A stretch of DNA of 43,714 bases from a bacterium (lineage in GTDB: Bacteria; Armatimonadota; Chthonomonadetes; Chthonomonadales; JAMCWF01). Shown here one piece after another: positions 3,159-37,013 of the stretch (its first letter is position 1; each line of letters opens with the position of its first letter). The notes beneath the pieces are model-generated. The model searched no databases. It saw nothing but the letters and a program-made list of their open reading frames with translations, and was not told the origin of the DNA. The position numbers and the translations under genes were made by a program. The DNA is taken from positions 1-43,714 of the forward strand of contig JAKBZR010000018.1 of assembly GCA_021842405.1 (NCBI GenBank), written 5' to 3'.

Positions 3159-3266
3159 ACCCGGAATCCAGGGCATCATTTTGCCAGCCTGTCGATAGGC
3201 AGGGAACTGGATTCCCGCTTTCGCGGGAATGACGAAGCGGCAGTATCCAGCGACTTTTTCAACAAT
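3159..3266. repeat. Family B element, right part
   Basis: Holds a GGATTCCCGCTTTCGCGGGAATGACG palindrome (inner core GGATTCCCGC/GCGGGAATGA) and ends AGTATCCAGCGACTTTTTCA. The same end occurs in the copy at 18347-18557. Together with the terminator and the family A fragment this accounts for most of the gap 2835-3354; I see no gene there. Confidence 0.6.
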
Positions 3267-6554: not shown

Positions 6555-9164
6555 ATGGGTAGAAAGGATGTTGTGATGGGAATCGTGCCAATCGCGATGG
6601 CGGTCGCGCTGCTGGCCTTGGCGGCGGTAGTTGCGGATGCGGATGCCGGGGCGATGTTTCCCTTCGTCATTCCTTGGAACGATGCCAGCAAAACGATCAC
6701 CGATGTATCGTACTTAAACGACGGGCCGGCCGGCTCCCACGGCTTCATCGTGGTGAAGAACGGCCACTTCGTTGAGAGCGATACCGGTCAGCGAATCCGG
6801 TTTCTGGGTGTGAACCTGGTTGCCGGCAGCGCATTTCCCAATCACGCCGATGCCCGAATCGTGGCGAGAAGGCTGGCGAAGTATGGGGTGAACCTGGTTC
6901 GACTGCACCATATGGATAACTGTTGGAACAACCCGAAGGGCACCATTTGGGACCTCAACGATCCGGATCACCGACACATCAACCCCCGGCAGCTCGACCG
7001 CCTCGATTATCTGATCTATGAACTGAAGCGACATGGTATCTATGTCAACATTAACCTGCACGTTTCGCGACAGTTCTCGCCCGCCGACGGATTCCCGGCC
7101 AGCGTCAGCGATATCCCTTTTTCATTCGATAAGAGGGTGGATTACTTCGACCCCAGCATGATCGAGCTGCAAAAGGAGTACGCCCGACAGCTTTTAACCC
7201 ACGTCAACCCCTACACCCATACCGCCTACACGGACGAGCCGGCGGTGCTTAACGTGGAGCTGACCAACGAGGATTCGCTGGTGGGCGACCCATGGTCCTC
7301 GCTGGGACATGGCTTAAAAGAGCTTCCGCAACCATTTTTGGGTGAATTGCAGCAGCTCTGGAACCGGTGGCTGGCTCAGCGCTACGGCGCCACCACCAAA
7401 TTAAAAGCGGCTTGGTTGAAAAACGTCACCCCGCCCGGCCCCGATCTGTTAAAAAGCGCCACCGATCTGTCAAGCTGGACGCTGGAACAACACCGCAACA
7501 CAAAAGCCGATCTCAGCATCCAGGGCGATGCGCTCAGAGCTGATGTCGCTCAGACGGACGGCACCGACTGGCACATCCAGCTTCACCAGGCGGGGTTGAA
7601 CATCCAGGATGGCGACACTTACACGGTTCGGTTTCGGGCGCGCGCAAACCCCGCCCGCGAGATGTCGGTCTACACTTCGCTGGATGAATCGGATTGGCAT
7701 CACATCGGGCTGGACGTGAGCGCACACCTGACGCCCGAATGGAAGCAGTACACCTATTTCTTCACCGCCCACCACGCCACGCCCGATCATTCGCGGCTCG
7801 TCTTCGTGCTGGGCAATCAGACCGGCGAGGTGGAGCTGGCTCAAGTCAAGCTGAGCGCCGGAGTGGAGGGCGGCGGCCTGCAGCCCGGCCAGACATGCAC
7901 GAATGATACCATCCCGATTCCGGACGGCGGATTGCCACAACAGTGGGCCGACTGGATCGCCTTTCTCACTCATACCGAGCGGGCATATAACCATGAAATG
8001 CGCGATTACCTGAAAAACGACCTCCACCTGCATGCCAACATCATCTGCAGTCAAATTTCCTATGGCGGGCTGTCCGGACCGTATCGTGAGGAAGCGAGCG
8101 AATTCGCCGACGACCATGCCTATTGGGAACATCCCCGCTTTCCGCGCCGACCATGGGATCCGGTGGACTGGCTCATCGGCAATACCTCCATGGTTCCAGC
8201 CATCGGTCAGAGCGATACCCTCACCGCAATGGCGGAATATCGGATCGCGGGCAAGCCGTTTACGGTGAGCGAGTACAACCATCCAGCTCCCAACGACTAT
8301 CAGTCGGAGTGCGTGCCGCTTTACGCCTCCTTTGCCGCTTTTCAAGATTGGGATGCCATCTACCTGTTTGACTACGGGAGCTATGGCGCCAATGCCGCAA
8401 ACGACCAGATACAGAGCTATTTTGGGGTGGGATCCAATCCGGCCAAGTGGGCGTTCATGCCGGCCGCCGCTATGATTTTTCGGGATGATGAGATTGGGCC
8501 GGCGGGCGAGTCGGTTACGGCCTCCATCCCCGCCAAGAACTACGAAGCGGAGCTGGCCCAATTCCCGACCGCCTACGATCTCTGGAATCACTATGGAATA
8601 ACCCGCAAAACGGCCCTATCGCGAAGGATGGGCATCCAGATGGGTGGTGAAGCCGGGATTCACAAAGCCGGCGCAGTTGGAAATTCGACGCTTGAATGTG
8701 AAAACAGCGACCCGGCCACCGCAATCTACACCGCCGACGCGCCGGCGGCAAAGGTGGTGGTGGGCTTTGTGGGCGGCCGAGCGGTAACGGTTGGGAAGGT
8801 GCGGTTTGAGTTCGGCGACACGCCTCACCACTTTGCCGCGCTGATACTGAACTCCCTGGACCGAAAACCGCTCTCCGAAAGCAGCCGAATTTTACTGACG
8901 GCGGCTGATCGGGTGGAGAACACCGATATGATTTGGAACGCCGCTCACAACAGCGTAAACAACCACTGGGGAACCGCGCCTTCCATCGCCGATGGCGTGC
9001 CGGTGACGCTCACTATGCCGGTAAGCGGCCCGCGGAAGGTTTACGCATTGACGGAGACCGGTGCATTAGGCCAGGAAGTTCCAATCACCTATCAGAACGG
9101 CCAAATCACGTTCACGGCCGGCCCGAATTACCGTACGTTGTGGTATGCGATAGTGAAACCTTAA
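6555..9164 (+). CDS. Secreted glycoside hydrolase (clan GH-A, GH5-like) with an inserted carbohydrate-binding module
   Basis: 869 residues; GGAGGT 8 bases before the ATG. A signal peptide spans about residues 1-32 (IVPIAMAVALLALAAVVADADA). The TIM barrel starts with GQRIRFLGVNLV and RLAKYGVNLVRLHHMD (~105-121). The probable acid/base is Glu239 in LTNED at the end of strand 4; the probable nucleophile is Glu573 in FTVSEYNHP. Between them, after WNRWLAQRYGATTKLKAAW, residues ~303-436 form a CBM4/9-type beta-sandwich (DTYTVRFRARAN, EWKQYTYFFTA), so the module is inserted inside the catalytic domain rather than appended. The C-terminus (~700-869) looks like an accessory beta-sandwich. The likely role is cleaving a plant or microbial polysaccharide outside the cytoplasm; the substrate is unknown. 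Confidence 0.75.
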   Translation: MGRKDVVMGIVPIAMAVALLALAAVVADADAGAMFPFVIPWNDASKTITDVSYLNDGPAGSHGFIVVKNGHFVESDTGQRIRFLGVNLVAGSAFPNHADARIVARRLAKYGVNLVRLHHMDNCWNNPKGTIWDLNDPDHRHINPRQLDRLDYLIYELKRHGIYVNINLHVSRQFSPADGFPASVSDIPFSFDKRVDYFDPSMIELQKEYARQLLTHVNPYTHTAYTDEPAVLNVELTNEDSLVGDPWSSLGHGLKELPQPFLGELQQLWNRWLAQRYGATTKLKAAWLKNVTPPGPDLLKSATDLSSWTLEQHRNTKADLSIQGDALRADVAQTDGTDWHIQLHQAGLNIQDGDTYTVRFRARANPAREMSVYTSLDESDWHHIGLDVSAHLTPEWKQYTYFFTAHHATPDHSRLVFVLGNQTGEVELAQVKLSAGVEGGGLQPGQTCTNDTIPIPDGGLPQQWADWIAFLTHTERAYNHEMRDYLKNDLHLHANIICSQISYGGLSGPYREEASEFADDHAYWEHPRFPRRPWDPVDWLIGNTSMVPAIGQSDTLTAMAEYRIAGKPFTVSEYNHPAPNDYQSECVPLYASFAAFQDWDAIYLFDYGSYGANAANDQIQSYFGVGSNPAKWAFMPAAAMIFRDDEIGPAGESVTASIPAKNYEAELAQFPTAYDLWNHYGITRKTALSRRMGIQMGGEAGIHKAGAVGNSTLECENSDPATAIYTADAPAAKVVVGFVGGRAVTVGKVRFEFGDTPHHFAALILNSLDRKPLSESSRILLTAADRVENTDMIWNAAHNSVNNHWGTAPSIADGVPVTLTMPVSGPRKVYALTETGALGQEVPITYQNGQITFTAGPNYRTLWYAIVKP

Positions 9165-9246
9165 GTTTTATTAATGGTAATCCCTAAATCGTCTGAACCA
9201 CGATTTATGGGATTAAAGGATGACCGTGATTGAAACGGGTAGGAAT

Positions 9247-9445
9247 GAGTTCAGTTCTGTGGGAATCATTTACGACCATATTGGATGCACCCCCACCCTA
9301 ACCCTCCCCCGTAAACGGGGGAGGGGATTAAGAGGGACTGGGGGGGGCAAGATAAAAGCGCCGCCGCTAAACTCCCTCTCCCTCCCCGCTTGCGGGGAGG
9401 GCTGGGGTGGGGTCGAACGAAAATCATTCCCGCAAAACTGAACTG
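9247..9445. mobile_element. Family A element, complete copy
   Basis: About 200 bp bounded by inverted repeats: left AGTTCAGTTCTGTGGGAATC (from 9248) and right, read on the other strand, AGTTCAGTTTTGCGGGAATG (ending 9444). The inside holds two opposed CCCTCCCC-type cores. It has no coding capacity. The right end abuts the stop codon (9446-9448) of the NlpC/P60 gene. Confidence 0.8.
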
Positions 9446-10306
9446 TTACACGGGTAGATGCCTCGTCGGCCGCTCTACCGTCTTCCCCGCCAGAACCCGC
9501 CGACTGCATCGCCAGCGGCGCTGGTAGTACTCCTCCGATAGGGAGCTTACATGGACCCCCCAATTCCCTGATGAGTGAATGAAAAGGCCATCGCCGATTG
9601 CCATCCCGACGTGGGTGATCGTGCGCCCGCGGCTATCGGGTTGATCCTGCCCAAAAAAGAGCAGGTCGCCCGCTTGAAGTTCGCCCGCTGAAACACGGAC
9701 CGATCCCTCCCACTCGGCTTGCAGATAGGCGTCCCGCGGCATGAGAATACCATGCTGGCGGTAGACGCGCTGGGTAAATCCGGAGCAATCAATCCCGAAG
9801 GTGGAGATCCCGCCCCACAAATAGGGGACGCCCAGCAGCCGCATGCCCGTCTCAATGACGCGCCGGACATTTGGTCGGTGAGATTCGGGGATTGGGGCGA
9901 GATCCTTTCGTTCCATCCGCCCGGTCCGGCCGTCCGGCAGCGTCACTATAGCCGTGCCACCCTTTTCAAGCTCCACCATCACTATCGAGCCCATTGCCAT
10001 GACCGCCACGGTCTGATCGTGCCGCTCCATTTTCCACAGCGTGGCATAGGCGCTCCGTATTTGGGCGTATCGTGGGTAGCCGGGACAGTGGTTCGAAAGT
10101 TGGGGTGGCGTATATTCCCCCACCAGGCTGTCTGCCCATATCCAGCCGCTGTAACCATATTCGGTGCGGGCCTCCACGAAACCGTTTCGTTCGGATTGTG
10201 CCTCAACCCACTCCCCCATCAATGCCTGGCTGATCCTTTCCGAACGAATATCGGGATATGCCAGCATATCGGTTACCGTGCGGATGACGATTCGGCGAGA
10301 TGGCAT
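9446..10306 (-). CDS. NlpC/P60 cysteine peptidase with SH3-like domains (YkfC-type)
   Basis: 286 residues; ATG at 10306 with AGGGGAG 6 bases upstream. Two SH3-like segments (about residues 8-65 and 80-138; GYSGWIWADSLVGEY is typical) precede the NlpC/P60 domain at ~145-275. The catalytic Cys174 lies in GIDCSGF, His232 in THVGMAIG and a polar third residue near His244 (FIHSSG). No signal peptide is seen, so it probably works in the cytoplasm, as YkfC does, splitting gamma-D-Glu-diamino acid bonds in recycled cell-wall peptides. YkfC relatives are usually slightly longer (~300). Transcribed alone, against its neighbours. A family A element touches its 3' end. Confidence 0.88.
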   Translation of the reverse strand: MPSRRIVIRTVTDMLAYPDIRSERISQALMGEWVEAQSERNGFVEARTEYGYSGWIWADSLVGEYTPPQLSNHCPGYPRYAQIRSAYATLWKMERHDQTVAVMAMGSIVMVELEKGGTAIVTLPDGRTGRMERKDLAPIPESHRPNVRRVIETGMRLLGVPYLWGGISTFGIDCSGFTQRVYRQHGILMPRDAYLQAEWEGSVRVSAGELQAGDLLFFGQDQPDSRGRTITHVGMAIGDGLFIHSSGNWGVHVSSLSEEYYQRRWRCSRRVLAGKTVERPTRHLPV

Positions 10307-10560: not shown

Positions 10561-10574
10561 ATGATATAAATCAT
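10561..10574. promoter_or_regulatory. FNR-like palindrome, distal box
   Basis: ATGAT-ATAA-ATCAT, a perfect palindrome with the spacing of FNR/CRP-family sites (FNR consensus TTGAT-N4-ATCAA). Its centre is 42 bp from that of the proximal box, about four helical turns, so two dimers would bind the same face of the DNA. Confidence 0.65.
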
Positions 10575-10602
10575 ACAGTTGCGCCTGGAGATGTCAAAGT
10601 AT

Positions 10603-10631
10603 ATGATTTAGATCATGATCTGTGTTATAAT
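10603..10631 (+). promoter_or_regulatory. crp/fnr promoter with an FNR-like box over the -35 region
   Basis: ATGAT-TTAG-ATCAT (10603-10616) is the second palindrome. A perfect TATAAT lies at 10626-10631, and the -35 position (10603-10608) falls inside the box. Occupation by the regulator would therefore be expected to block polymerase, meaning negative autoregulation, unless the real start lies elsewhere. The leader to the ATG at 10776 is about 140 bases, longer than needed; I see no known riboswitch in it. Confidence 0.6.
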
Positions 10632-10775: not shown

Positions 10776-11570
10776 ATGTCGGACCGGTTGGCTTTTTTGC
10801 AGAGCATTCCGATCCTGGCCGATATGCCGATTGAGGAGATAGCACAACTTGAATCACAAGTTTCCGAGCGGAAATACAAATCGGGCGTAGAGATTTTCAG
10901 CGAAGGGGGCGAAGCCTTCGCAATCGGCGTCATTCTTCGGGGTCGCGCTAAAGTGGTCAAGCACTCAGCGCTCGGGCGCGATATAACGGTTGCGATCCTG
11001 AAGCCGGGCGATATTTTCGGCGAAGTTTGCCTCTTTCTGGCAGACCGAATTTATACCTCATCGGTAATCGCCATCACGCCGATTACCGCACTTTTCATTC
11101 CACATAGCCAGGTTGTCGAGGCCCTCAATGAATCCCCTCTCTTCGCCAAACGCCTCATCGCGGCGGTGTCACGCCGTCTCTGCTACACGCAGGAGATGCT
11201 CCGGTTTTTAGTCACTGAAGCGGTTGATAAGCGCATCGCTCACCTGCTGATCTACTTGGCGAAAACAACCGGCGTTCAAAGCAACGATCGCGCCTTAATT
11301 ACCACTCCACTTACCCGCCACGAGATCGCCGATCTGGCCGGCACCACGGTGGAAACGACCATTCGGGTGTTGAGCCGACTGACGAAGGCGGGGTACATCT
11401 GCACCATCCACGGAAAGCTGGTCCCAAAAGGTTGCCGCCTTTGCGGCATAGATTCATACTGCCATCGCTGTAATAAGATCGTCATTATGCACCTAAGCGC
11501 CCTAAAATCCTTTGCTGAAGATAGTTGCGATTCGAATCAGCAGCTCTGCCCACAACCTTCGATCGTATGA
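10776..11570 (+). CDS. Crp/Fnr-family regulator with a four-cysteine insertion in the wing
   Basis: 264 residues; ATG preceded by GAAGGTGAT. Residues ~10-115 form the cyclic-nucleotide-binding-like sensor (KPGDIFGEVCLF), ~120-150 the dimer helix and ~178-207 the winged helix (TRHEIADLAGTTVETTIRVLSRLTKAG). The recognition segment TVETTIR resembles E. coli FNR TVETISR, keeping the Glu and Arg that read the TGAT half-site. The N-terminal Cys cluster of FNR is absent. Instead Cys220, Cys223, Cys229 and Cys232 form CX2CX5CX2C between the two wing strands, a possible zinc or Fe-S site. It lies upstream of, and reads into, the cytochrome genes, so it probably controls them in response to oxygen, NO, haem or redox state (inference). 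Confidence 0.88.
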   Translation: MSDRLAFLQSIPILADMPIEEIAQLESQVSERKYKSGVEIFSEGGEAFAIGVILRGRAKVVKHSALGRDITVAILKPGDIFGEVCLFLADRIYTSSVIAITPITALFIPHSQVVEALNESPLFAKRLIAAVSRRLCYTQEMLRFLVTEAVDKRIAHLLIYLAKTTGVQSNDRALITTPLTRHEIADLAGTTVETTIRVLSRLTKAGYICTIHGKLVPKGCRLCGIDSYCHRCNKIVIMHLSALKSFAEDSCDSNQQLCPQPSIV

Positions 11571-11700
11571 CGGTTGTCATATTATTTCAGGCCGATCCTG
11601 CGATATGCTAGGTCAACAAAGATTGAAGTGCATCGAACCGATCGTTGTCGTGTTTTGAGATCACCACCGGCTGATGCGGTCCAATTGAGTGGAGGAAATT

Positions 11701-12696
11701 GTGAAATTGAACACAATCAAACAGTTCGGTCAAGGGGTGAAGTACCCCATTATGATGGGTGCGCTGATCGCCTTGGGCGCTCACCTCGCCGCCTCCAGCG
11801 CGCCATCGGATGCCACCTACAAGGGCTCCAAGATTTGCATGATGTGCCACCGTACCATGGATATTTCAAAGACCATCGTCGCCTCCTATGTCCAAACCGC
11901 GCACTACTCCGCGCTGCAGCCGGCAACCAATGCCAATGCGATCGTGGCCGATTTCAGCTCCGCCCCCTTCACGAAAGATAAGGTGGCTTACGTGCTGGGC
12001 GTGGGGCATCGGCAGCAAGCCTATCTGGATGCAAATTTCCAGCTTTTGCCGGCCGAGTGGAGCGTGGCCACCAAGTCTTGGGTGAAAGTGGAACCGGTGG
12101 ATGCGAAGGCTCAGTGCATCCGTTGCCACACGACTGGATTTGACGCGACAAACGACACTTGGGTGGAGATGGGAGTTGGCTGCGAGATGTGCCACGGTCC
12201 CGGCAGCACTCACCTGGCAAAAATGGTATCCGCCCCCGACGCGCAAAAGCTGGAAATCGCCAAGCAAACCATCCTGATGCCAAAGGATCTGCCACCCCAG
12301 CGGCTGGATATGATCTGTGGTCAATGCCACTCGGTGGGTAAAGATAAAGACGGGCATCCGTTTCCAGCCTCCTTCCGGCCGGGAGATGATTTGAATGCCG
12401 TCTTTACCCTGGCCCAAGTTACCGGCCCCGGGCGCAATCAGCAATACAACGATTACATTCAAAGTAAGCACTACGCGGCGGGCATCACCTGTATTACCTG
12501 CCATGACCCGCACGGTAATACGGATCAGCCCGATCAGCTTCGGCAGCCGGTCAACCAATTGTGCTTAACCTGCCACAAATCACAAATCACTGACCCGGCC
12601 GCCCATATTCAGCAGCACAAGGGCGCCGCCGATGCGAAATGCTCGGATTGTCATATGCCGCAGGGCCGCCATCTATTCACCAAGCCGGCACCTTGA
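11701..12696 (+). CDS. Seven-haem periplasmic cytochrome c (c554-like)
   Basis: 331 residues from GTG 11701, with GGAGG 5 bases upstream; the GTG at 11689 overlaps that site and is rejected. The signal peptide ends near AASSAPSDA (about residues 1-38). Seven CXXCH haem sites are visible: CMMCH, CIRCH, CEMCH, CGQCH, CITCH, CLTCH and CSDCH. Extra histidines in NDYIQSKHYAAG and HIQQHKG could be distal ligands. The layout is that of the cytochrome c554 / multihaem group, whose members carry electrons in the periplasm and sometimes act on nitrogen compounds. No catalytic Lys-ligated haem (CXXCK) is present, so a carrier role is likelier than a nitrite reductase. First structural gene after the regulator. 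Confidence 0.88.
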   Translation: MKLNTIKQFGQGVKYPIMMGALIALGAHLAASSAPSDATYKGSKICMMCHRTMDISKTIVASYVQTAHYSALQPATNANAIVADFSSAPFTKDKVAYVLGVGHRQQAYLDANFQLLPAEWSVATKSWVKVEPVDAKAQCIRCHTTGFDATNDTWVEMGVGCEMCHGPGSTHLAKMVSAPDAQKLEIAKQTILMPKDLPPQRLDMICGQCHSVGKDKDGHPFPASFRPGDDLNAVFTLAQVTGPGRNQQYNDYIQSKHYAAGITCITCHDPHGNTDQPDQLRQPVNQLCLTCHKSQITDPAAHIQQHKGAADAKCSDCHMPQGRHLFTKPAP

Positions 12697-12881
12697 TGAT
12701 AGCCGCCGAGATGGCAATGGACTGACCTCTGTCAGCAACCAATACGAAGGTTACCGGCATAAATTTTATACCGTGAACCAGCGAACGGTGGGGCGGCTGG
12801 AAAGCCGAACCGAGCTGAGGTGATCCTTTACCAACCGCTCCATCGGATTTGCAGGCCGGTTATTATTGAAGAGATTAATTG

Positions 12882-14972
12882 GTGAAAACGATGATAGCCA
12901 CGCACCGTCCGCGGTACGCGTGGTGGGCACATACATCGATTCTTTTAATGATGATGCTGTCGGGATTACCGGCAAGGGGCGTATCCATCTCCCTCACCAA
13001 TCGCATTTGTTTGAGCTGTCACTCGCGAACGATCGTAAGCGGTTACATTGACCCGGCACGCTACAGCCAATCGGTTCATCGCAATTTAAAGTGCACCGAT
13101 TGCCACCGTGATTTCAGCATCAATCGCCTGCCTCATCCCGCCACCGCTGCACCGGTGAATTGTGTCTCCTGTCATCTTAAAAACAGCGGGCTCGCCGCTC
13201 GATTTGCCGACATCGCCCATCGTTTTAAGATGAGCATCCACCATCAGATAGCGGTTGCGGAGCACACCACCTTGGCTCCCACCTGCGCTACCTGCCACGG
13301 TCGGCATGAAATTTTGCCGGCTTCGGACCCGCGCTCGAAGGTCAACCGGCGAAACATTCCTTTCACCTGCGCCCACTGCCACAATGATCCGCGGCTGGTT
13401 GACCGGTTTCGCATTCCGAAGGGACATGTTTTAATTGAGTATGAAAGAAGCGTGCACGGACAGTTGCTGCTCGGCCAGGGGATGAACCGCGCCGCCGTTT
13501 GCACCGATTGCCATCGTGCCCATGACATTCAGCCGGCCGACGTTGCCGGCTCATCGGTTTCCCGGAATCATATACCGTATACCTGCGGTCGCTGCCATCC
13601 GGATAAGATGACGCGCTATCTGTCCGGAGTGCATGGCCAGGCGTTCTTAAAGGAAGTTCGGGCCGCTCCGGTGTGCACCGACTGCCATGGAGAGCATACG
13701 ATCCGGGCGCCCACCGACCGCACCTCATCGGTATACCCGACCAACATCCCGAATACCTGCGGACGCTGCCACGCCAACAAAGCGATTGACCTGCGCTTCG
13801 GGCTGCCGGCCGATCGGCTTTCGACTTTCCGCAGCTCCTACCACGGAACAGCTTTGACTTACGGGATCGTGACGGTGGCCAATTGCGCGACTTGCCACCG
13901 TGCTCACGAGGTACTGCCCGCCTCGGATCCACGCTCATCCATCAATCCGAAGAACATACCGGCCACCTGCGGCCGCTGCCATAAACACGCCGGCGCTAAC
14001 TTCGCCCGCGGTGAGGTCCACATGGAGGTTACTCCGGCCGGCAACCTGGGCGTCTATCTGATGACCCTCTTTTACCGCGTCGTGATCTGGTCTATGACGA
14101 TCCTCTTTTTTGGGCTGATTGGGCTGGATCTGTGGGCTCGGCGCCGCGAATCCAAGCGTAATCGGGGGGGCGCCTCCGCGCCGGCGGGCCACTCCATTAA
14201 TACGAGCCACGATGCGGCGCGATTGGAGGCGGGCGGGGCAGAAGGCTCATTGGCGAACACTTACGTCGAGCGAATGCCGCTTCAGGTTCGAATTCAGCAC
14301 GTCATCCTGTTGATCAGCGTGGGTACCTTGATGGCGACCGGATTTTTGCTGCAGTACTCACAAACCGACTGGGCTCGCTTTCTGCTGTCGTTTCCTGGCG
14401 GCTTCGAGCTTCGCGCCTGGCTGCACCGAGCCGGCGCTGTCTTACTGATCACGGCCGCGATCTACCATCTCATCTACCTTGCCGTTTCAAAGTCATCCCG
14501 AAAAGACATCATGATGCTGATGCCGAATCGCAAGGATCTCCGCGATTTCACTCACCAACTTCAATACTACTTTGGCTTAGCCCCAGACCGACCTCAATTC
14601 GGCCGGTTCGGCTACGCGGAGAAATTCGAGTATCTCTCCCTTACTTGGGGGACGATCGTGATGGTGGTGACCGGCGCCGTACTCTGGTTTATGAGCGCCG
14701 CTCTGCACTGGCTCCCGCTGTGGGCATGGCAGATGGCGCTGGTTATGCACGGCTTTGAAGCGCTGCTCGCCTTTATCGCGATCGTTACCTGGCACCTCTA
14801 TTGGGTGCATTTCAATCCTTCCGTCTTTCCGATGAGTTCCGTCTGGATTACCGGCAAAATATCGCTCCATCAGATGCGGGAGGAGCATCCGTTGGAGTAT
14901 GAGGAGCTTATGCAACAGCAGTCACAGTTAATGTTAACGGATATCAATGAAGCCGAGCCGATGAGGGACTAG
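12882..14972 (+). CDS. Eleven-haem cytochrome c fused to a membrane cytochrome b (CbcL-like)
   Basis: About 696 residues; GTG 12882 with GAAGAG upstream. The N-terminus is hydrophobic (SILLMMMLSGLPARG), so the c part is outside. Eleven CXXCH sites follow (CLSCH, CTDCH, CVSCH, CATCH, CAHCH, CTDCH, CGRCH, CTDCH, CGRCH, CATCH, CGRCH), several as CXXCHxxH(D/E/T)I. A transmembrane helix (~395-415) and a charged linker lead to a C-terminal 4-helix cytochrome b of the hydrogenase/formate dehydrogenase gamma type (~470-670), with His in RIQHVILL, WLHRAG, IYHLIY and VMHGFEALLAFIAIVTWHLYW. This is the architecture of Geobacter CbcL, an inner-membrane quinol oxidoreductase feeding periplasmic haems. It lies directly before the Rieske and cytochrome b genes. 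The electron acceptor is unknown. Confidence 0.85.
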   Translation: MKTMIATHRPRYAWWAHTSILLMMMLSGLPARGVSISLTNRICLSCHSRTIVSGYIDPARYSQSVHRNLKCTDCHRDFSINRLPHPATAAPVNCVSCHLKNSGLAARFADIAHRFKMSIHHQIAVAEHTTLAPTCATCHGRHEILPASDPRSKVNRRNIPFTCAHCHNDPRLVDRFRIPKGHVLIEYERSVHGQLLLGQGMNRAAVCTDCHRAHDIQPADVAGSSVSRNHIPYTCGRCHPDKMTRYLSGVHGQAFLKEVRAAPVCTDCHGEHTIRAPTDRTSSVYPTNIPNTCGRCHANKAIDLRFGLPADRLSTFRSSYHGTALTYGIVTVANCATCHRAHEVLPASDPRSSINPKNIPATCGRCHKHAGANFARGEVHMEVTPAGNLGVYLMTLFYRVVIWSMTILFFGLIGLDLWARRRESKRNRGGASAPAGHSINTSHDAARLEAGGAEGSLANTYVERMPLQVRIQHVILLISVGTLMATGFLLQYSQTDWARFLLSFPGGFELRAWLHRAGAVLLITAAIYHLIYLAVSKSSRKDIMMLMPNRKDLRDFTHQLQYYFGLAPDRPQFGRFGYAEKFEYLSLTWGTIVMVVTGAVLWFMSAALHWLPLWAWQMALVMHGFEALLAFIAIVTWHLYWVHFNPSVFPMSSVWITGKISLHQMREEHPLEYEELMQQQSQLMLTDINEAEPMRD

Positions 14973-15093
14973 GAACACGATGATGCTTATGCGATTATTG
15001 AAATACTCGCCGAAGTCCGCCATTCGGTCATTGCCGCGAAAGCGGGAATCCAGACCGATGCTTTGTGGCAGGCGGTGATGTTGATGTTCTTCC

Positions 15094-15150
15094 GTCATTG
15101 CGAGAAGCCGCGTACCGGCGACGAAGCAATCTCCTCTTGCCTAAGGGGAT
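15094..15150. repeat. Partial GTCATTGCGAG repeat
   Basis: GTCATTGCGAGAAGCCGCG and GGCGACGAAGCAATCTCC match the left half of the palindromic repeat at 1305. The right half is replaced by the family B element starting at 15151. Confidence 0.65.
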
Positions 15151-15308
15151 GTTGAAAAATATGGGAAAACCCACCGGATCGTCATTCCCGCGAAAGCGGG
15201 AATCCACTCTCCTGCCGATCGGTGGTCCGGTACGATGGCGCTCTGGATTCCGGGTTCCGCTTTGCGGCTCCGGAATGACGACCCGGTGGGTTTTACCGTG
15301 TTTTCAAC
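15151..15308. mobile_element. Family B element, complete copy
   Basis: 158 bp. Left end GTTGAAAAATATGGGAAAAC followed by CCACCGGATCGTCATTCC; right end (other strand) GTTGAAAACACGGTAAAACC then CACCGGGTCGTCATTCC. This gives terminal inverted repeats of about 37 bp with a few mismatches. Inside is the CCGCGAAAGCGGGAATCC palindrome. It has no coding capacity, so it is MITE-like. With the partial repeat it fills the gap between the cytochrome and Rieske genes (14973-15351). Confidence 0.75.
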
Positions 15309-15351: not shown

Positions 15352-15846
15352 GTGAAACACCCGAATTCAAACAATCGGAAAACAAATAGGCGGCGATTTC
15401 TCTCCTACCTGGTAGGTCTAGCCGGTTTGTTACTGGTCGGTCTGGTTTCGGTTCCAATGGCCGCGCTCAGCCTATTCCCCGCATTCAAGCGGCGCAAGGA
15501 AACATGGCTGGATATCGGTCCGCTGGCCGATGTGGTGCTCGGTGATCCAACCGCATTCACCTACCGTTACAACAACCGAGATGGCTACCTGGATCAGCTC
15601 ATTCGCGGAACCGTCTATGTGGTGGCCGAAAATCTTCAATCGTTCACCGTGTTTTCCAATATTTGCACTCACGCCGGTTGTGCGGTGCGCTGGGAACCCG
15701 ACAAACAGGTGTTTTATTGTCCCTGCCACAACGGCATGTACAACATTAACGGTCAGGTGGCCGCGGGACCGCCGCCGCGCCCATTGGACCGCTTCCCTTA
15801 TAAGGTGGTCGGTGGCCGAATTCTGATCAAGATAAAAGGAGCCTAG
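15352..15846 (+). CDS. Rieske iron-sulfur protein of a bc-type complex
   Basis: 164 residues from GTG 15352, with GGAGG 6 bases upstream; a longer in-frame reading runs into a repeat and is rejected. TNRRRFLSYLVGLAG is a twin-arginine-like signal anchor, as expected for a Rieske protein exported folded. Cluster boxes: CTHAGC (Cys105, His107, Cys110) and CPCHNG (Cys123, Cys125, His126), giving the two Cys and two His ligands and the disulfide pair. It takes electrons from menaquinol at the Qo site of the cytochrome b encoded 4 bases downstream. The length matches short b6f/Rieske proteins of Gram-positive and green bacteria. Confidence 0.93.
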   Translation: MKHPNSNNRKTNRRRFLSYLVGLAGLLLVGLVSVPMAALSLFPAFKRRKETWLDIGPLADVVLGDPTAFTYRYNNRDGYLDQLIRGTVYVVAENLQSFTVFSNICTHAGCAVRWEPDKQVFYCPCHNGMYNINGQVAAGPPPRPLDRFPYKVVGGRILIKIKGA

Positions 15847-15850
15847 AGGG

Positions 15851-18316
15851 GTGAGAAGTATCCTCCGTTGGATAGATGATCAGACCGGACTGGTCTCCGA
15901 TATCGAGCGATTTCTGGCACATCCATTGCCGTCCGGTGTAAGCTGGCCACAAACGATCGGAGCCGTGATCCTGTTTTTGCTCGCGATTCAGTTCGTCACC
16001 GGCATCTTTCTCGCCCTCTACTACGCGCCGACCCCCGATCATGCCTACGACAGCATTCAGTTTATCCGCAGCATCTATTGGGGAAGGCTGGTTCTGGGAC
16101 TGCATCACTACACCACCGACGCCATCGCCTTCCTGGTCGGCGTTCACATTTTGCGGGTTTTCCTCTGGGGAGCCTACAAAAAGCCGCGCCAGATTATCTG
16201 GGTTATTGGAATCCTGCTGCTGACCCTCACGATGGCCTTCACCATCACCGGTTCACTTCTGCCGTGGGACCAAAACGGATATTGGGCCACCACCATCCGG
16301 ATGAGCTTGGCCGGCTCGCTTCCGATTGTAGGCCACTGGTTGAAAGAGATCATCCTGGGCGGGCATGCGGTGGGCACGCTGACTTTGACCCGATTTTACG
16401 CGATTCACGTCTTTTTCTTGCCGGCCATACTTGTGATCTTGCTTATCTTTCATGTGTTTCAGGTGAGGGTGAAGGGAATCACGCCGCCGTGGCGCCGGGT
16501 GGATGGTGAGCAGGACGTCGAAAAGCCGCTTCTGTTTCATCCGGATCATACGATAAAGATCATGATCTGCTGCACGGTGATTTTTGTGATACTGGTGCTG
16601 GCGACGCTGATTTTGGGATTTCACCTCACGCCGCCCGCAAATCCCAACCTAGCTTATCCGGCTCACACCGACTGGTATTTCCTCTATCTCTTTGAGCTGG
16701 CTCACCTTTTCTCAGGGAAGTGGGAGTTCATCGGCGGCATGGTTATTCCGGGCATCACCTTGCTGGCTTTTATTCTGGTACCCTATTTAGACCGCAACCC
16801 GGAGCGAAAACTGGCTCGGCGCCCCATTTCCATCTTCCTCGCCGGCGGCGTCTTCATCGCGGTGACGGCTTTGTCAATGCGGTCGCTGCCGACGATTGAA
16901 AGCGCTCCAAAATTGACACCGCTACAGCAAGAAGGGCAGAAGCTCTTCCTCGACTTGCATTGTCAGGCTTGCCATGGGATAAACGGCGGCGGCGGTACCG
17001 CCGGTCCGGATTTGGCGTCCGGCGGCAAGCTCACGAAAAAGACGATTGAGGAGGTACTGCTCAATCCCACCCGGTTTAACCCACGCTCGATCATGCCGCC
17101 CTCTCAGTTGAACCCGCATGAGATCATAGCGATGGTGTCATTCATTCAAAGCATCCGTCCAACCTCCACCATGCCATCCACACCACAAATCGGGCCACCG
17201 GAGCCGCAATCGCACCTCGAGGAGGGTTTCATGCTCAATCATCGGTTTGAGGTGATGAAGGATCCTCAATCATGCGCCGAGTGCCATCAACCCCGGTTTT
17301 GCCAGGCCTGTCACCGCAACCGGAAACCCGATTCCCATCTCCACCACTGGTTGCGGTTCCATGCCGGGGCTTCCGCCGCCAACCCTAAATTTTGCCTGGT
17401 CTGCCACTCGCGTCAACAGTGCGACCAGTGCCACCGCAAGCTGCTGCATGGCCCCTACTGGTTGAAGATGCATCGAAATGCCGCATTAAAAAACAAGGCA
17501 ACCTGTTATCGCTGTCACACGCCGACATTCTGCCGAACTTGCCATCAGGGCGCACGGCCGCCGTCGCATCAGCAGCCGGACTTTTTACAAATACATGGCA
17601 AGTTGACGGCCACTCACAATTGTGCGGTGTGCCATACCCCCAATTTTTGCGTACAATGCCATCAAGGGGCGCGGCCCGTTTCACACCGAGCGCCTGATTT
17701 TATAAAACAGCACGGCAGGCTCGCGCTAAGCGGTACGTTGCGATGCAGTGCCTGTCATAAAGTATCCTTTTGCCAGACCTGCCACCGAACCGCCATGCCG
17801 CACCCGGCGGATTGGTTAAATCGAAAGGTGCTGCCGCCGATCGGTCCGGTAAAAACGGCCCAAAGCCCTCATTCGGTCGCCGCTTTGCGGTCGCCGATCT
17901 GCGCCAACTGTCACATCCAGAACTTTTGCATGAATTGCCATGGAGCCGCCATGCCTCACCCGGGCGGATGGATGCAGTCGGGGCATGAACCGGTTGCGCT
18001 GCAAAATCCAGCACTCTGTAAACGCTGTCACCAGTCCTCCGAGTGCTTGACCTGCCACCAGACTCATAAGCCCGCCTCACACGATGCGAATTGGCCGAAA
18101 ACCCATCCAACCGCTGCGAAAGGGCATGAGAAGGTATGCGCCGTTTGCCATGGTCAAAACAGTTGCGATCGCTGCCATCAGACGCCGATGCCGCACCCTT
18201 CCGACTGGGCGATGACGCATGCCAAGGTGGCCTCCTTTAAGGCGAACAGCTTTTGTTTCAAGTGCCATGACCGGCAGAAATTCTGTTCGATGTGCCACAG
18301 CAAAACTTCGCCCTGA
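15851..18316 (+). CDS. Cytochrome b (b6f-like) fused to a mono-haem c domain and an 18-haem doubled-CXXCH tail
   Basis: 821 residues; GTG 15851 with AAGGAG at 15836-15841, 4 bases after the Rieske stop. Residues 1-210 are a b6-type cytochrome b. Haem ligands are His85/His99 (13 between) and His186/His201 (14 between, as in b6f), with LPWDQNGYWA. A subunit IV-like part follows (~230-345), where the Qo motif PEWY is TDWY (273-276). Then comes a mono-haem c domain (CQACH at 371, probable Met ligand in SIMPP). From ~465 to the end there are nine CXXCH pairs, eight spaced X4 and the last X5, each followed by a P-x-SH or MPHP..W..H motif likely to supply distal His. Nineteen c-haems plus the b-haems would make one polypeptide a quinol oxidase and a long haem wire. 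Confidence 0.9.
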   Translation: MRSILRWIDDQTGLVSDIERFLAHPLPSGVSWPQTIGAVILFLLAIQFVTGIFLALYYAPTPDHAYDSIQFIRSIYWGRLVLGLHHYTTDAIAFLVGVHILRVFLWGAYKKPRQIIWVIGILLLTLTMAFTITGSLLPWDQNGYWATTIRMSLAGSLPIVGHWLKEIILGGHAVGTLTLTRFYAIHVFFLPAILVILLIFHVFQVRVKGITPPWRRVDGEQDVEKPLLFHPDHTIKIMICCTVIFVILVLATLILGFHLTPPANPNLAYPAHTDWYFLYLFELAHLFSGKWEFIGGMVIPGITLLAFILVPYLDRNPERKLARRPISIFLAGGVFIAVTALSMRSLPTIESAPKLTPLQQEGQKLFLDLHCQACHGINGGGGTAGPDLASGGKLTKKTIEEVLLNPTRFNPRSIMPPSQLNPHEIIAMVSFIQSIRPTSTMPSTPQIGPPEPQSHLEEGFMLNHRFEVMKDPQSCAECHQPRFCQACHRNRKPDSHLHHWLRFHAGASAANPKFCLVCHSRQQCDQCHRKLLHGPYWLKMHRNAALKNKATCYRCHTPTFCRTCHQGARPPSHQQPDFLQIHGKLTATHNCAVCHTPNFCVQCHQGARPVSHRAPDFIKQHGRLALSGTLRCSACHKVSFCQTCHRTAMPHPADWLNRKVLPPIGPVKTAQSPHSVAALRSPICANCHIQNFCMNCHGAAMPHPGGWMQSGHEPVALQNPALCKRCHQSSECLTCHQTHKPASHDANWPKTHPTAAKGHEKVCAVCHGQNSCDRCHQTPMPHPSDWAMTHAKVASFKANSFCFKCHDRQKFCSMCHSKTSP

Positions 18317-18346: not shown

Positions 18347-18557
18347 GTTGAAAAATACCGTAATACCCTACTGGGTCGTCATTCCGGGGCCGCAAAGCGG
18401 AACCCGGGATCTAAATCACCAGCATACCTCCCTGACGATTGGTAAGGAACTGGATTCCCGCCATCCACTCCACTGGAGTGGAGCCATGCGGGAATGACGA
18501 AGGGGAATGACGAAGGGGAATGACGAAGGGGAAGTATCCAGCGACTTTTTCAACAAC
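18347..18557. repeat. Family B-related element
   Basis: Begins GTTGAAAAATACCGTAATAC and ends CAGCGACTTTTTCAACAA, so the outer 9 bases are inverted repeats. It contains CTCCACTGGAGTGGAGCCAT and three tandem GGAATGACGAAGG units. The right end equals that of the copy at 3159. The gap 18317-18689 holds no gene. Confidence 0.65.
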
Positions 18558-18689: not shown

Positions 18690-20990
18690 ATGATATCAAT
18701 GGGCCATTCGGCAATCTATATCGCGCTGATCGCCACACTGGTCGCCGCCTACGCCTATATTACCGTCTTGCGCGGGCAGGCGGAGAGCCTGAAGCTGGCC
18801 CGGTTCAGCCTGGCGCTGGCTGCAACCGGCGTCGTCGTTGCGCTGGGAAGCCTGCTGATGCTGTTTCTGGGCCACCATTTCGAAGTGAGCTATGTCTACG
18901 ATTACAGCTCCTCCGACCTTTCAACTCCGCTACTGGTATCCGCTCTCTGGGCTGGACAATCAGGGAGCCTGCTCTTATGGACGCTGTTGACCGCCGTTAT
19001 CGGCATTGTGCTGGCCCTTAGCTCCGGCAAAGACGAGCCCTATCGGATGCCCTTCTTTCTGCTCGCCCAGCTCTACCTGATCGTGTTGCTGATTTCAAAA
19101 AGCCCCTTCGCCACCCTTCACGGCCCGATACCCCCTGAAGGAAGCGGCCTGAATCCGTTGCTGCAAAATATCTGGATGATCATTCATCCACCGTTTTTAT
19201 TTCTTGGCTATGCGCTGCTGACGGTACCGTTCGCGATGGCGCTCGGTTCACTGCTGAAGCGCGAGTTCAACGATTGGATCGGCAAGTTGATGCCGTGGGC
19301 CGTTATCGGCTGGGTGGCGCTCTTTGTCGGCATCGCGCTGGGAGGGTACTGGGCTTATGAAACGCTCGGCTGGGGCGGCTTCTGGGGATGGGATCCGGTT
19401 GAAAACTCATCATTAGTCCCCTGGCTGGTGCTGACCGCTTTGCTGCATGGTTTGATCATTCAGCGGGTGACCTCCTCCTTTCACCGAACCAACTATGCGC
19501 TGGCCGTATCCCCCTACCTGCTGGCCCTGCTGGCTACCTATCTGACTCGTAGTGGAATACTGGGTGATACCTCGGTTCACTCGTTTGGTCAAGCTAGCTC
19601 TCAATTTAATCTGCTGATGATTGGATTCCCATGCGTGTTTGCCGTGATCGCGCTTCTCCTCTATCGGCGGGCTGCACGCAACATCCAAACCCAACCGGCC
19701 TACACCTCGTTGCTGTCGAAGGGCTTTCTGGTGGCAGCCTCCGTCGTGGTGCTGTTGGCGCTCACCGTTGCGATCCTTTGTGGGACGATCGCGCCCATCG
19801 TAATGGCACAGTTCGGCCACTCATTCGCGGTGTCGCAGAGCTACTATAATCGGGTAAGCACGCCGGCCGCCGTCATTATTTGCGTTTTAATGGCACTCGC
19901 TCCGCTGATCGGCTGGAAACCGGTATCCGCCGCTGAAATCAAGCCCGCACTGGTGTCGCCGCTCTACTTCTCACTGTTGGTATGCGCCGTCGCCTGGGGT
20001 TGCGGCGTGCACTCATGGATATGGCTGATCTGCGCCGGCGCGGCCGCGTTTGCAATCAGCGGGAACGCAATCCGGCTCTACTATGGATATCGGGATCGCC
20101 AGCCGCTGCGCACCGGCGCCCAGCTCGCCCACATCGGGGCCGCTCTACTGGTGGTCGGCGCATTTGTCTCCACCGTATATCAGCGCGAACAGATCGTTTC
20201 GGTCGCGACGGAGCGCCCATCCACCGCTTTCGGCTATCAGCTCAATTTGCAAAGCCTGCACAACCAGCCGACCACGCTGCATCAGCTCAAGCGTCAGCTC
20301 AACCTAGTACTGCGAAGTAACCAGCAGTCGTATAGCGCCCGGATGACGTTCACCTCCACCGCGAACGGCTGGGTTAATTCACCGGCCATTCACCACACCG
20401 CGTTCTACGATCTTTATTTGGCTCCCACACAATTGGAGAGCCATCCTACCATACCGACCATTCTCTTGAAGCTCGGTGTGCCGGTTCAGATCGGCCGTAC
20501 TACTTGGCTGTTCAAGGGCTTTAAAATGTTCGAGCATGGCCAAACCGCCAATCAATTTCGGGTCGGAGCCGTCATCACGATTACCGATCCGCAGGGAACT
20601 CACACACTGATCCCGACGGTGAACGGCCAAAAGCAACCGATTGACGAGCCGTCTTTACCTGACCAACCCCGCATTAAGATTGAGTTGGCAGACTTGATGG
20701 CCGATTCACAGCAGGTAGCGCTCTCATTGGTTGGGATGCCGGCCCCCTCCTCAGCCGCGGTGAGGGTTTGGATGCAGGCGATCTACAAGCCCGGTATCGG
20801 TATGGTCTGGCTGGGCGCTATCTTGATCGTGCTGGGAGGACTGTTGGCCGCGATTCGACGCTCCTCGGATCTGAAGCGAAAATCAACCCCCATCGCTCCA
20901 CCGGCAACCAGCCACAACGGCAGCGGGATCGCGCCATCCCATTCGAAAAAGAGAAAATCGGTTGCGCCGATCATATCCGGGGTATTGTGA
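18690..20990 (+). CDS. ccmF: Cytochrome c-type biogenesis haem lyase CcmF/NrfE
   Basis: 766 residues; ATG with GAGG 9 bases upstream. It is a polytopic membrane protein. The haem-handling WWD motif is intact at residues 228-245 (WGGFWGWDPVENSSLVPW). Other family marks are YVYDYSSSDLSTPLLVSALWAGQSGS near 69-92 and MIIHPPFLFLGY at ~163-173, with the conserved His. A large periplasmic loop (about 505-700) and a last transmembrane helix (~715-735) follow, then a basic tail longer than usual (typical CcmF is ~650). With CcmH/I it joins haem b to apocytochrome thiols in System I maturation. CcmE, CcmG and CcmH are not in the window. Placement after cytochromes totalling 37 CXXCH sites suggests dedicated maturation. 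Confidence 0.93.
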   Translation: MISMGHSAIYIALIATLVAAYAYITVLRGQAESLKLARFSLALAATGVVVALGSLLMLFLGHHFEVSYVYDYSSSDLSTPLLVSALWAGQSGSLLLWTLLTAVIGIVLALSSGKDEPYRMPFFLLAQLYLIVLLISKSPFATLHGPIPPEGSGLNPLLQNIWMIIHPPFLFLGYALLTVPFAMALGSLLKREFNDWIGKLMPWAVIGWVALFVGIALGGYWAYETLGWGGFWGWDPVENSSLVPWLVLTALLHGLIIQRVTSSFHRTNYALAVSPYLLALLATYLTRSGILGDTSVHSFGQASSQFNLLMIGFPCVFAVIALLLYRRAARNIQTQPAYTSLLSKGFLVAASVVVLLALTVAILCGTIAPIVMAQFGHSFAVSQSYYNRVSTPAAVIICVLMALAPLIGWKPVSAAEIKPALVSPLYFSLLVCAVAWGCGVHSWIWLICAGAAAFAISGNAIRLYYGYRDRQPLRTGAQLAHIGAALLVVGAFVSTVYQREQIVSVATERPSTAFGYQLNLQSLHNQPTTLHQLKRQLNLVLRSNQQSYSARMTFTSTANGWVNSPAIHHTAFYDLYLAPTQLESHPTIPTILLKLGVPVQIGRTTWLFKGFKMFEHGQTANQFRVGAVITITDPQGTHTLIPTVNGQKQPIDEPSLPDQPRIKIELADLMADSQQVALSLVGMPAPSSAAVRVWMQAIYKPGIGMVWLGAILIVLGGLLAAIRRSSDLKRKSTPIAPPATSHNGSGIAPSHSKKRKSVAPIISGVL

Positions 20991-25284: not shown

Positions 25285-25734
25285 GTGAAGACCATTTACG
25301 AAGCTTGTGATCTGCGTTCCGAAGTGCTTGAAGGCGAGTTGGACGATGCAATATTTGCCGCTGACTTCGGTCATATTGTGGAAGGAGGCGGCGCTGAGGT
25401 CTATCGTAACCCCCATACTTTTTTCAAGAACACCTATCCTACCAGTCGGCTGAAGAAGGTGGTATCCCACATCTTTGAACGCCTGGCCAATTCGGTCGAA
25501 GCAGGGGCGTTGGTTCGGCTCAGCACCGGCTATGGCGGCGGGAAAACCCATACGCTGATCGCCCTCTGGCACCTGGCCAAAAACATCGCTGATACGACGC
25601 TCGGTACCGAGCTTTTACCGGCGGCCGGCCGCCCCAGCACGGTGGCGGTTTCAACCGATCATACCGACTACGAGAACTTTTTGACCTTCGTCCAGCCGCA
25701 CAAGATCGCGATGACCTACAAGCTGAAGGATTGA
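25285..25734 (+). pseudogene. N-terminal remnant of a DUF499 ATPase
   Basis: 149 residues; GTG with AGGAGGAGGG upstream. KTIYEACDLRSEVLEGELDD, PHTFFKNTYPTSRLKKVVSH and RLSTGYGGGKTHTLIALWHL reproduce the start of DUF499 proteins, including the Walker A motif GYGGGKTH. These are normally about 1000 residues and occur in defence clusters with DUF1156 methyltransferases. Here the similarity stops near residue 120 and a short unrelated tail (about VSTDHTDYENFLTFVQPHKI) leads to a stop. No Walker B is left, so it cannot be an active ATPase by itself. It is probably a deletion scar joined to other DNA. Confidence 0.7.
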
Positions 25735-31750: not shown

Positions 31751-31752
31751 GG

Positions 31753-33675: not shown

Positions 33676-33680
33676 GCGTG

Positions 33681-36600: not shown

Positions 36601-37013
36601 GGTGCCTTCGTGGGGAACACGAAGCTGTCGATGGCGAAGTCTTCGTCACCGGAGTGCACCTCAGGACGATCGGTAATCGCGTAGACCGATTTGAAGCCAA
36701 TGCCGAACCGACCGATGTCCGTCAGGTCCTTGGTTGTCTCGCCGACGCCGCATACGCCCTTCACGTCTTCGAGCGTGAACGGATTACCGTAATGTACGAT
36801 TCGAAGGCTAGTCGGAGTCAGTTCGAACAGAACTTCTCGCGAACCTTTCCAATCTTTTCGCCGCTTCAGGGCATCCTCAGCGTTTTGCAAGATTTCGAAG
36901 ATGAAATGCGCGCTGCTGTCGTAGCGATTGACGAGGAGATCACGTCCCCAACGGCCAACGTTGCCATACTCGGCACGGTTGGCGTCACGAATGGCGGCGT
37001 AGTCTGAAGGCAT
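33681..37013 (-). CDS. Large Bergerat-fold ATPase (sacsin/HATPase_c_3 type) with C-terminal DUF3883 (NOV) domain
   Basis: 1110 residues from ATG 37013, which overlaps the helicase stop by one base (TAATG). A longer in-frame reading to 37268 is only an extension into the helicase gene. The N-box is FIFEILQNAEDALKRR (Asn44, Glu46, Asp47), G1 is degenerate (VHYGNPF) and the G2 lid is DIGRFGIGFKSVY, as in Hsp90/sacsin-like ATPases. A long middle part has no family I know. A low-complexity Gly/Ser/Asp linker (~940-985) leads to DUF3883: NPGFDLFEPG (Asp1016), then WCEVKAMTG (Glu1031, Lys1033), a D..ExK arrangement like PD-(D/E)XK nucleases. Such proteins recur next to helicases and methylases in defence islands; the mechanism is not established. 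Confidence 0.85.
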   Translation of the reverse strand: MPSDYAAIRDANRAEYGNVGRWGRDLLVNRYDSSAHFIFEILQNAEDALKRRKDWKGSREVLFELTPTSLRIVHYGNPFTLEDVKGVCGVGETTKDLTDIGRFGIGFKSVYAITDRPEVHSGDEDFAIDSFVFPTKAPSTRRAADQTEIVLPLRAGDAGLRSSVSDSLSKLGARTLLFLRQIEEIGWSVNGGASGLYLKGKAESTGDGSRRVTLVGEREGEPVVDETWLVFSREARTEAGTLAGFIEIAFLLQEDKESKQWTIQRVDASPLNAFFPTVVTTHLGFLVQGPYRTTPSRDNVPPRDPWSVKLVQETATLLLDSLEVLKSQNLLDVAALQSLPIERTKYPEGSMFAPLFDAVRTALASNPLLPRAGGGWTAAKNARLARTQELRELFDSKQLATLLDSTEEVHWLSGDITRDTASTLRNYLLYELKVTELTPEQILPRLNKKFLEAQPDEWILKLYEFLGGQSALVRQGRVSNIPLVRIEGGTHVVAESGGQPQAFLPSGIRTDFPTVPKSVCSTEKALEFLKALGLTEPDVVDDVVRNIIPKYKKEPVEADGDEYEADLKRILNAFGTQHRGQREKLSAALRDTPFVKSVDLGDGRKHISKPADLYLATERLTALLAGVAGAMVVDDSYECLRGNAVRDLLESCGASRSLVQEQVECALSWEQRAELRRSAGCESMSSEELIQDHTLRGLPQLLTLFSSLDPEAKRARAQLLWEALKDVEDRRGTGAFSASYNWYYYRHRWTMLDPAFVRALNSTAWVPDSDGELQRPEVVTLESLGWSRHAFLATKIIFKKPILDQLATEAGIEPKVIEILKKRGLTRVEDLIAAIGESQEVEDAIAQIPSGSGIVENSDVAVADDAPEPVDDAIKNRLGIGTQPTAPVPDPAANDPNGSDRANGDSTQRVGDGKGWSAASNRAGSPSSRGPGEGTTAGHGGQLTGSHSNAGDGKRTPGSAGGRPFVSYVAVHPGEGPDPDGLDQAARMALEAKAIELICKREKRWQTTTTHNPGFDLFEPGPDGHPIRWCEVKAMTGSLDDRPVGLSRTQFECAREHREKYWLYAVEHAGTAGARIVRIQDPVGKARTFTFDHGWLDVAEVDPSSEERED

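Follow-up and report, generated by a model that had tools for sequence, protein, structure and literature searches.

The locus raises the question of whether a single gene can encode both the membrane core of a Rieske/cytochrome b complex and a long chain of c-type haems, and, if it does, where such a complex would send its electrons. The window (the whole stretch of DNA analysed, 43,714 nucleotides from the genome of an uncultured Armatimonadota bacterium) contains an open reading frame on the forward strand that starts with GTG, has an AAGGAG-like site just upstream, and had been described in a sequence-only reading as a b6f-like cytochrome b, a subunit IV-like part, a mono-haem c domain and a multihaem stretch in one frame. 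Pfam found the domains in that order: cytochrome b N-terminal (E-values in the 1e-39 range), cytochrome b C-terminal/petD (9e-5) and class I cytochrome c (8e-9), with weak matches only in the haem-rich tail. An exact count gave the proposed 19 haem-attachment motifs (CXXCH): one stands alone at residue 371, and the rest form nine pairs spanning residues 475-816, in which the two motifs are separated by four residues in eight pairs and by five in the last. Since its coordinates, domains, ligands, motif and haem counts were all confirmed, the earlier description of the gene stands in full. The fused gene, its parts and its immediate upstream neighbour are:

15,352-15,846, forward strand: Rieske [2Fe-2S] subunit with a Tat-type signal, NRRRFL (Pfam Rieske, 1.7e-10; ligands CTHAGC/CPCHNG intact)
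15,851-18,316, forward strand: fused cytochrome b / subunit IV / mono-haem c / 18-haem wire, 821 aa
15,851-16,474, forward strand: b6-like cytochrome b domain (Pfam; solved b6 relatives; bc1/b6f fold match; His 85/99 and 186/201)
16,535-16,885, forward strand: subunit IV-like domain with the TDWY Qo motif and the last transmembrane helix (Pfam PF00032, 9.4e-5; Qo alignment)
16,919-17,158, forward strand: class I mono-haem c domain (CQACH, His375, predicted distal Met415; Pfam Cytochrom_C, 8e-9; invariant residues)
17,189-18,298, forward strand: 18-haem wire of nine units of about 40 residues, each with H..H and CXXCH-X4(5)-CXXCH (repeat analysis)

A sequencing or assembly error that joined two genes is virtually ruled out. 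The unusual length of the protein, and nothing else, speaks for such an artefact; against it, no missed stop was found at 17,200-17,300, and 21 further complete fused relatives from other assemblies, one of them 91% identical and 20 more divergent, read through the same junction as one open reading frame. Homologues are not always split, either: a search for the domain chain recovered the same fusion in 23 of the 201 Armatimonadota genomes searched (10 families; 13-21 haems), though split versions also exist.

The same fusion, with six to ten two-haem units, thus occurs in at least 22 other species. We compared 22 complete fused proteins, all of which cross the junction between cytochrome b and wire in one reading frame. 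The closest relative, from another genome of the genus (L001/G179), is 91% identical over all 821 residues; an Abditibacteriales relative (L002) is about 57% identical and has 17 haems, and a third (L003) is about 46% identical and has 15. In a tree of the cytochrome b part, the 22 proteins form one clade (support 100/99.9) against 27 unfused rows, which include the host's own paralogues and proteins of Acidobacteriota, Nitrospirota and Planctomycetota with zero to two c haems; this unrooted tree is compatible with a single fusion event in Armatimonadota. Membrane-embedded multihaem cytochromes, there left without an assigned function, were reported from a night-active hot-spring Armatimonadota of class HRBIN16 (PMC11788075), and these may be relatives of the fused protein.

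By the features that we tested, the fused protein belongs to the Rieske/cytochrome b class, with an output domain of new design. Its cytochrome b domain matches PF00033/PF13631; the histidines that would ligate the b haems (85/99 and 186/201) have the b6 spacing and are invariant in 22 homologues; the closest solved relatives of residues 1-450 are cytochrome b6 proteins; and the predicted model matches bc1/b6f cytochrome b folds. Seven membrane helices are predicted from the hydropathy of close homologues, and this helix count alone would put the wire on the p side, across the membrane from the N-terminus. The class I c domain follows the last helix and is thus a membrane-anchored c-type haem partner (in the role of c1 or f), with its position on the p side likewise predicted. 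Its residues C371, C374, H375 and M415 are invariant among the 22 homologues, and because Met415 is invariant, the haem is probably His/Met coordinated, with Met415 as the predicted distal ligand. The replacement of PEWY by TDWY in the Qo motif, which had been pointed out before, is present at residues 273-276. TDWY was rejected as a signature of function, since clade members differ in this motif (PEWY, PEWF, PDFY, PDLY, and THWY in L002); an acidic residue is kept in all clade members except L002.

The Rieske gene ends 4 bp ahead of the fused gene, and a Rieske gene lies directly upstream in 17 of the 18 relatives for which upstream sequence is available. Because this subunit is encoded by the adjacent gene, the term quinol oxidase used earlier is better replaced by quinol:cytochrome c oxidoreductase, of the Rieske/cytochrome b kind. 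The Rieske gene likely starts at GTG 15,352, which has GGAGG upstream and is followed by the Tat-like NRRRFL, rather than at ATG 15,235, which falls in a REP-like repeat. The cluster ligands are intact, and the serine that hydrogen-bonds the cluster is absent; this serine is quoted as raising the Rieske potential, by about 130 mV in yeast (PMC12954380), and a Rieske protein lacking it would suit a low-potential chain. Loss of Rieske ligands in two families of relatives (f6 and f23) was considered and ruled out, since the alignment shows the ligands intact, with CTHxSC, CTHxNC or CTHxAC replacing CTHxGC. In the loci of these families (L144-L155), such variants of Rieske box 1 occur together with PDFY or PDLY as the Qo motif, a joint drift at the quinol site.

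The part of the protein that follows the mono-haem domain obeys a simple repeat rule. It consists of tandem units of about 40 residues (median period 40), each having two haem-attachment motifs in the arrangement CXXCH-X4-CXXCH and two spare histidines; the repeated P-x-SH and MPHP..W..H motifs noticed before are part of this pattern, the units of the window protein reading approximately (P-x-S/M-P)H-x(2-3)-(W/F)...H...CXXCH-X4-CXXCH. At least two spare histidines precede the CXXCH pair in all 162 units of the 22 proteins, several of them are invariant in all 22, and there is at least one spare histidine per CXXCH haem. The number of wire haems per protein is 12, 14, 16, 18 or 20 and never odd (in total 1+2n, with n = 6-10). 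The window protein has nine pairs among 23 spare histidines, and the chance that a random arrangement places at least two before each pair is 7e-5, a value that covers this protein alone and is not multiplied across homologues, since they are not independent. The array opens with two histidines ahead of its first CXXCH pair and has none behind its last one, which makes the register of the unit H-H-C-C (HHCC). Because all units keep two spare histidines and haems change in twos, the data fit bis-His coordination of every wire haem and growth of the wire by whole two-haem units. The AlphaFold2 model of the wire has a pLDDT of about 40, and we found no clear solved homologue of the module, the best phmmer match being to flavocytochrome c (E 4.5e-4).

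We also looked for the module outside the fused gene. The CXXCH-X4-CXXCH pattern, searched as DNA, has eight matches in the host genome, all within the fused gene, and none in the control. Among the 201 Armatimonadota genomes, 49 have matches to the wire profile (A4), and many of the matches are other proteins. One class has a NapC/NrfH-type head with a single N-terminal helix, about ten HHCC units and 28 haems in all (head matches up to 7e-12 in Pfam and up to 1e-15 to NCBIfam NrfH, the latter below cut-off); a lipoprotein-like class has 13-18 haems (L126, L128); and others among the matched proteins have 25-32. Two further loci, L130 (4,031-8,924) and L132 (3,385-8,762), encode cytochrome b6 and subunit IV in genes of their own. 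After these come genes for a 9-haem and a 26-haem protein, the latter holding the HHCC units; a Rieske gene is seen in L132. As far as their sequences tell, these operons, from two other Armatimonadota families, correspond to the fused gene in split form and speak for a functional link between core and wire. A gene for an HHCC wire comes directly after one for a molybdopterin oxidoreductase in L118 (3-4,456), where an NrfD gene is also present, and in L122 (684-4,481); L143 (3-2,512) has a Mo-enzyme, a 21-haem wire, a Rieske and a fused gene in a row. Because the module is also found behind NapC/NrfH heads, beside unfused Rieske, b6 and subunit IV, and beside molybdopterin oxidoreductases, it is, judging by these contexts, a portable conductor. 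The idea that it is confined to Armatimonadota was rejected in its strict form: stand-alone HHCC repeat cytochromes of up to seven units were found in Planctomycetota (L171) and Nitrospirota (L160-L164). These short proteins score up to 96 bits, versus up to 450 in Armatimonadota, and none of those inspected is fused to a cytochrome b. A search of 247 Acidobacteriota genomes, run without a positive control, gave no match.

Further genes around the Rieske/fused pair bear on its role:

10,562-10,615, forward strand: pair of palindromic FNR/CRP-like boxes, TGATNNNNATCA, at a spacing of 42 bp, ahead of the regulator gene (exact matches)
10,776-11,570, forward strand: CRP/FNR-family regulator with a Cys-rich C-terminal tail, CRLC-X6-CHRC (Pfam cNMP_binding, HTH_Crp_2; 92% conserved in L001)
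11,689-12,696, forward strand: periplasmic 7-haem c-type cytochrome, MHC7, c554/DmsE-related (7 CXXCH; Pfam Cytochrome_C554; NCBIfam DmsE/GSU2203-like below cut-off)
12,879-14,972, forward strand: CbcL-like protein with 11 c-type haems ahead of a b561-type membrane domain (11 CXXCH; Ni_hydr_CYTB 6.6e-8)
18,690-20,990, forward strand: CcmF/NrfE-type haem lyase, c-type cytochrome assembly (NCBIfam NrfE 4e-88, below cut-off; CcmF/NrfE 1e-84; Pfam)

The two boxes are the only exact matches to TGATNNNNATCA in the whole window, and the pair is kept at the same spacing in the 91% identical relative; two exact matches arose by chance in 15 of 100 shuffles, and it is the placement and conservation of the boxes that carry weight. 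The regulator lacks the N-terminal FNR cysteines, and the cysteine cluster in its tail is possibly a metal- or Fe-S-sensing element. The 7-haem cytochrome is a probable partner of the fused complex, as gene order suggests; its homologues adjoin stand-alone wires in six related loci (L121, L124, L125, L128, L130 and L140). The CbcL-like gene adjoins the Rieske/fused pair in about ten related loci; it has a TTG start, and its two halves are separate reading frames in several relatives. This neighbour fits the CbcL layout (a multihaem domain followed by a b561/HydC-type membrane domain), whereas the fused protein does not. Some relatives have no multihaem neighbours, so neither the 7-haem nor the CbcL-like partner is obligatory. 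In L144, an NrfA-type cytochrome c552 nitrite reductase gene (8,164-9,768) adjoins the Rieske/fused pair.

Elsewhere in the window we observed REP-like palindromes (GTCATTCCCGCGAAAGCGGGAATC and longer inverted copies) at 15,027-15,290, 18,367-18,461 and 3,210-3,233; such repeats lie to either side of the Rieske/fused pair. A truncated DUF499/HmaC-like ATPase fragment lies at 25,285-25,734, and the reverse strand at 28,994-40,569 carries a run resembling a defence island: a type III restriction helicase, a type III-like N6/N4 methyltransferase, a RadC-like protein, a Sacsin/NO VEIN protein (PADLOC TmtA models) and a UvrD helicase-nuclease (GajB-like match).

The host encodes two other Rieske/b systems. 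On C6, a Rieske gene accompanies a b-c protein that carries two class I haems; on C86, genes for Rieske, b6 and subunit IV occur together with those for a cytochrome c protein and a COX1/FixO oxidase. C119 holds a second COX1. Because the host has both of these systems, one of them beside a COX1/FixO haem-copper oxidase, O2 respiration seems to be served by these systems, and the wired complex seems to be additional. No MtrB/PioB porin match was found in the host, and control genomes likewise gave none over cut-off. NrfA was considered as an acceptor and set aside, as the host genome gave no match.

Our favoured reading, which we consider rather likely, is that the product of the fused gene forms the membrane part and the electron output of a b6f-like quinol oxidoreductase, in which a covalent haem wire feeds a distant acceptor as a separate respiratory branch. 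The presence of two other Rieske/b systems in the host, together with the locus's own CRP/FNR-type regulator, favours a dedicated quinol-oxidising branch of this kind, which would be separate from the O2-linked bc systems of the same cell. Quinol would be oxidised at the Qo site; one electron would pass to the separately encoded Rieske protein and on to the class I c domain with its His/Met haem, and the other to the b haems, in a normal Q cycle. From the His/Met haem, electrons would enter the 18 bis-His haems, which would lie on the outer (p) side as nine units of two, and would leave the wire for a distant acceptor, most likely the 7-haem neighbour, and from there for a periplasmic reductase or a cell-surface exit. 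That electrons flow outward, to a periplasmic or surface acceptor via this neighbour, we hold with somewhat better than even confidence. The step from a His/Met haem to bis-His haems may be uphill for such a flow. Published porin-cytochrome conduits offer a comparison: in MtrCAB, 20 haems extend over roughly 185 Å. By the same arithmetic, which is not in itself evidence, a linear chain of 18 haems could extend over some 150 Å or more, a distance similar to that across a periplasm. A bolder version can be put forward only tentatively: a complex III-type enzyme wired toward the cell surface, with 18 haems in one polypeptide crossing most of the periplasm and replacing diffusible carriers, and HHCC as a general, length-adjustable block that Armatimonadota plug onto several quinol-oxidising heads.

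The wire could also be used in reverse, importing electrons from an outside or periplasmic donor (Fe(II) or the substrate of a Mo-enzyme), with the Rieske/b core running backwards to reduce quinone. The CbcL/MtrH/MtoC and CymA families are thought to be bidirectional (PMC6295460), molybdopterin oxidoreductase genes precede wires in L118, where NrfD is also present, and in L122, a Mo-enzyme gene lies upstream of the wire and Rieske-bc genes in L143, and the 7-haem neighbour is no known terminal reductase. We nevertheless regard this as unlikely: wires of the same type sit on NapC/NrfH heads, which usually oxidise quinol; the CRP/FNR-type regulator and the CbcL-like neighbour fit outward respiration at least as well; and no iron-oxidase gene was seen in the cluster. 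It is quite unlikely, too, that the 18 haems act as a capacitor, storing electrons to buffer the quinol pool or to serve soluble cytochromes with no distance to bridge. A fixed gap might not allow haem numbers to vary from 13 to 21 as they do, and the host also encodes class I cytochrome c domains; but the invariant unit layout and its attachment to different heads suggest conduction, and the number of haems may vary because envelope width varies among species or the chain folds back.

A further alternative is a supercomplex in which the haem tail would be an arm that docks a single fixed periplasmic partner, either a reductase or a dehydrogenase, rather than a long-range wire. Such an arm would account for the NrfA-type gene beside the pair in L144 and for the Mo-enzyme gene in L143. 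Neighbours vary among species, however, the window contains neither an NrfA nor a Mo-enzyme gene, and the host lacks an NrfA match, which makes a docking arm very unlikely.

To our knowledge, the electrons of known bc complexes go either to small, mobile cytochromes or to multihaem cytochromes that are subunits of their own. The earlier statement that the parts of this gene would usually be separate subunits holds for the long wire, which is unusual, but not for the rest, since proteins in which cytochrome b is fused to subunit IV and to one or two class I haems are common in Acidobacteriota, Nitrospirota and Planctomycetota. Those proteins, and the anammox Rieske-cytochrome b complex Kuste3096-3097, in which the fused cytochrome c has two c haems (PMC12954380), share with the fused protein the b6-type helices, the subunit IV part, the Qo motif and a C-terminal cytochrome c; they carry one or two c haems, whereas the Armatimonadota protein carries 19, including its 18-haem repeat module. 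Two other anammox complexes (Kuste4569-4574 and Kustd1480-1485) combine a b6-like cytochrome b and subunit IV with a hexa- or octahaem cytochrome c that replaces cytochrome f (PMC12954380), but as separate subunits, with NAD(P) oxidoreductase subunits and haem cN; the fused protein lacks a Cys at the b6 Cys35 position. Plastid and cyanobacterial b6f complexes likewise have haem cN (via Cys35), together with cytochrome f, whereas the fused protein gives no Pfam match to cytochrome f and has T35 at the aligned position. Rieske and cytochrome b genes accompanied by several multihaem cytochromes were proposed to serve anaerobic respiration in Geobacter (GSU2930-2937; PMC2825233) and Methanoperedens (MPEBLZ_00816-00823; PMC4683180); there the multihaem cytochromes are separate subunits (2, 10, 12 and 5 haems; two pentahaem proteins), and their likeness to the wire is by description.

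Among the membrane quinol oxidases of extracellular electron transfer (CbcL/MtrH/MtoC, CymA and ImcH; PMC6295460, PMC9129911), CbcL comes closest in plan, as a one-chain enzyme whose multihaem c domain, with nine haems, is in the same chain as the membrane part (PMC9129911); that part has six helices and a di-haem b and works without a Rieske protein, in contrast to the Rieske/b core described here. The Armatimonadota NapC/NrfH proteins with long C-terminal haem chains (L124, L125, L140 and others) share the HHCC module, but their head is a single-helix NapC/NrfH domain and not a cytochrome b. What is new, then, is the long fused wire on a Rieske/b core; Rieske/b complexes with multihaem partners as separate subunits were already known. 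The open-access literature that we searched contains no report of such a core fused to a long haem wire, and the fusion is a real and apparently undescribed way to carry electrons from the membrane toward a distant acceptor.

A bc complex with its own covalent conductor of 12 to 20 haems would tie Q-cycle energy conservation directly to long-range electron transfer. The (HHCC)n repeat offers a natural length series, with 12 to 20 wire haems on the same head, for testing conduction length. Three families of quinol oxidases are recognised for extracellular electron transfer (PMC6295460), and if the acceptor lies outside the cell, the Rieske/b head would join them. For this Armatimonadota lineage, a wired bc complex would suggest the route by which electrons cross the periplasm.
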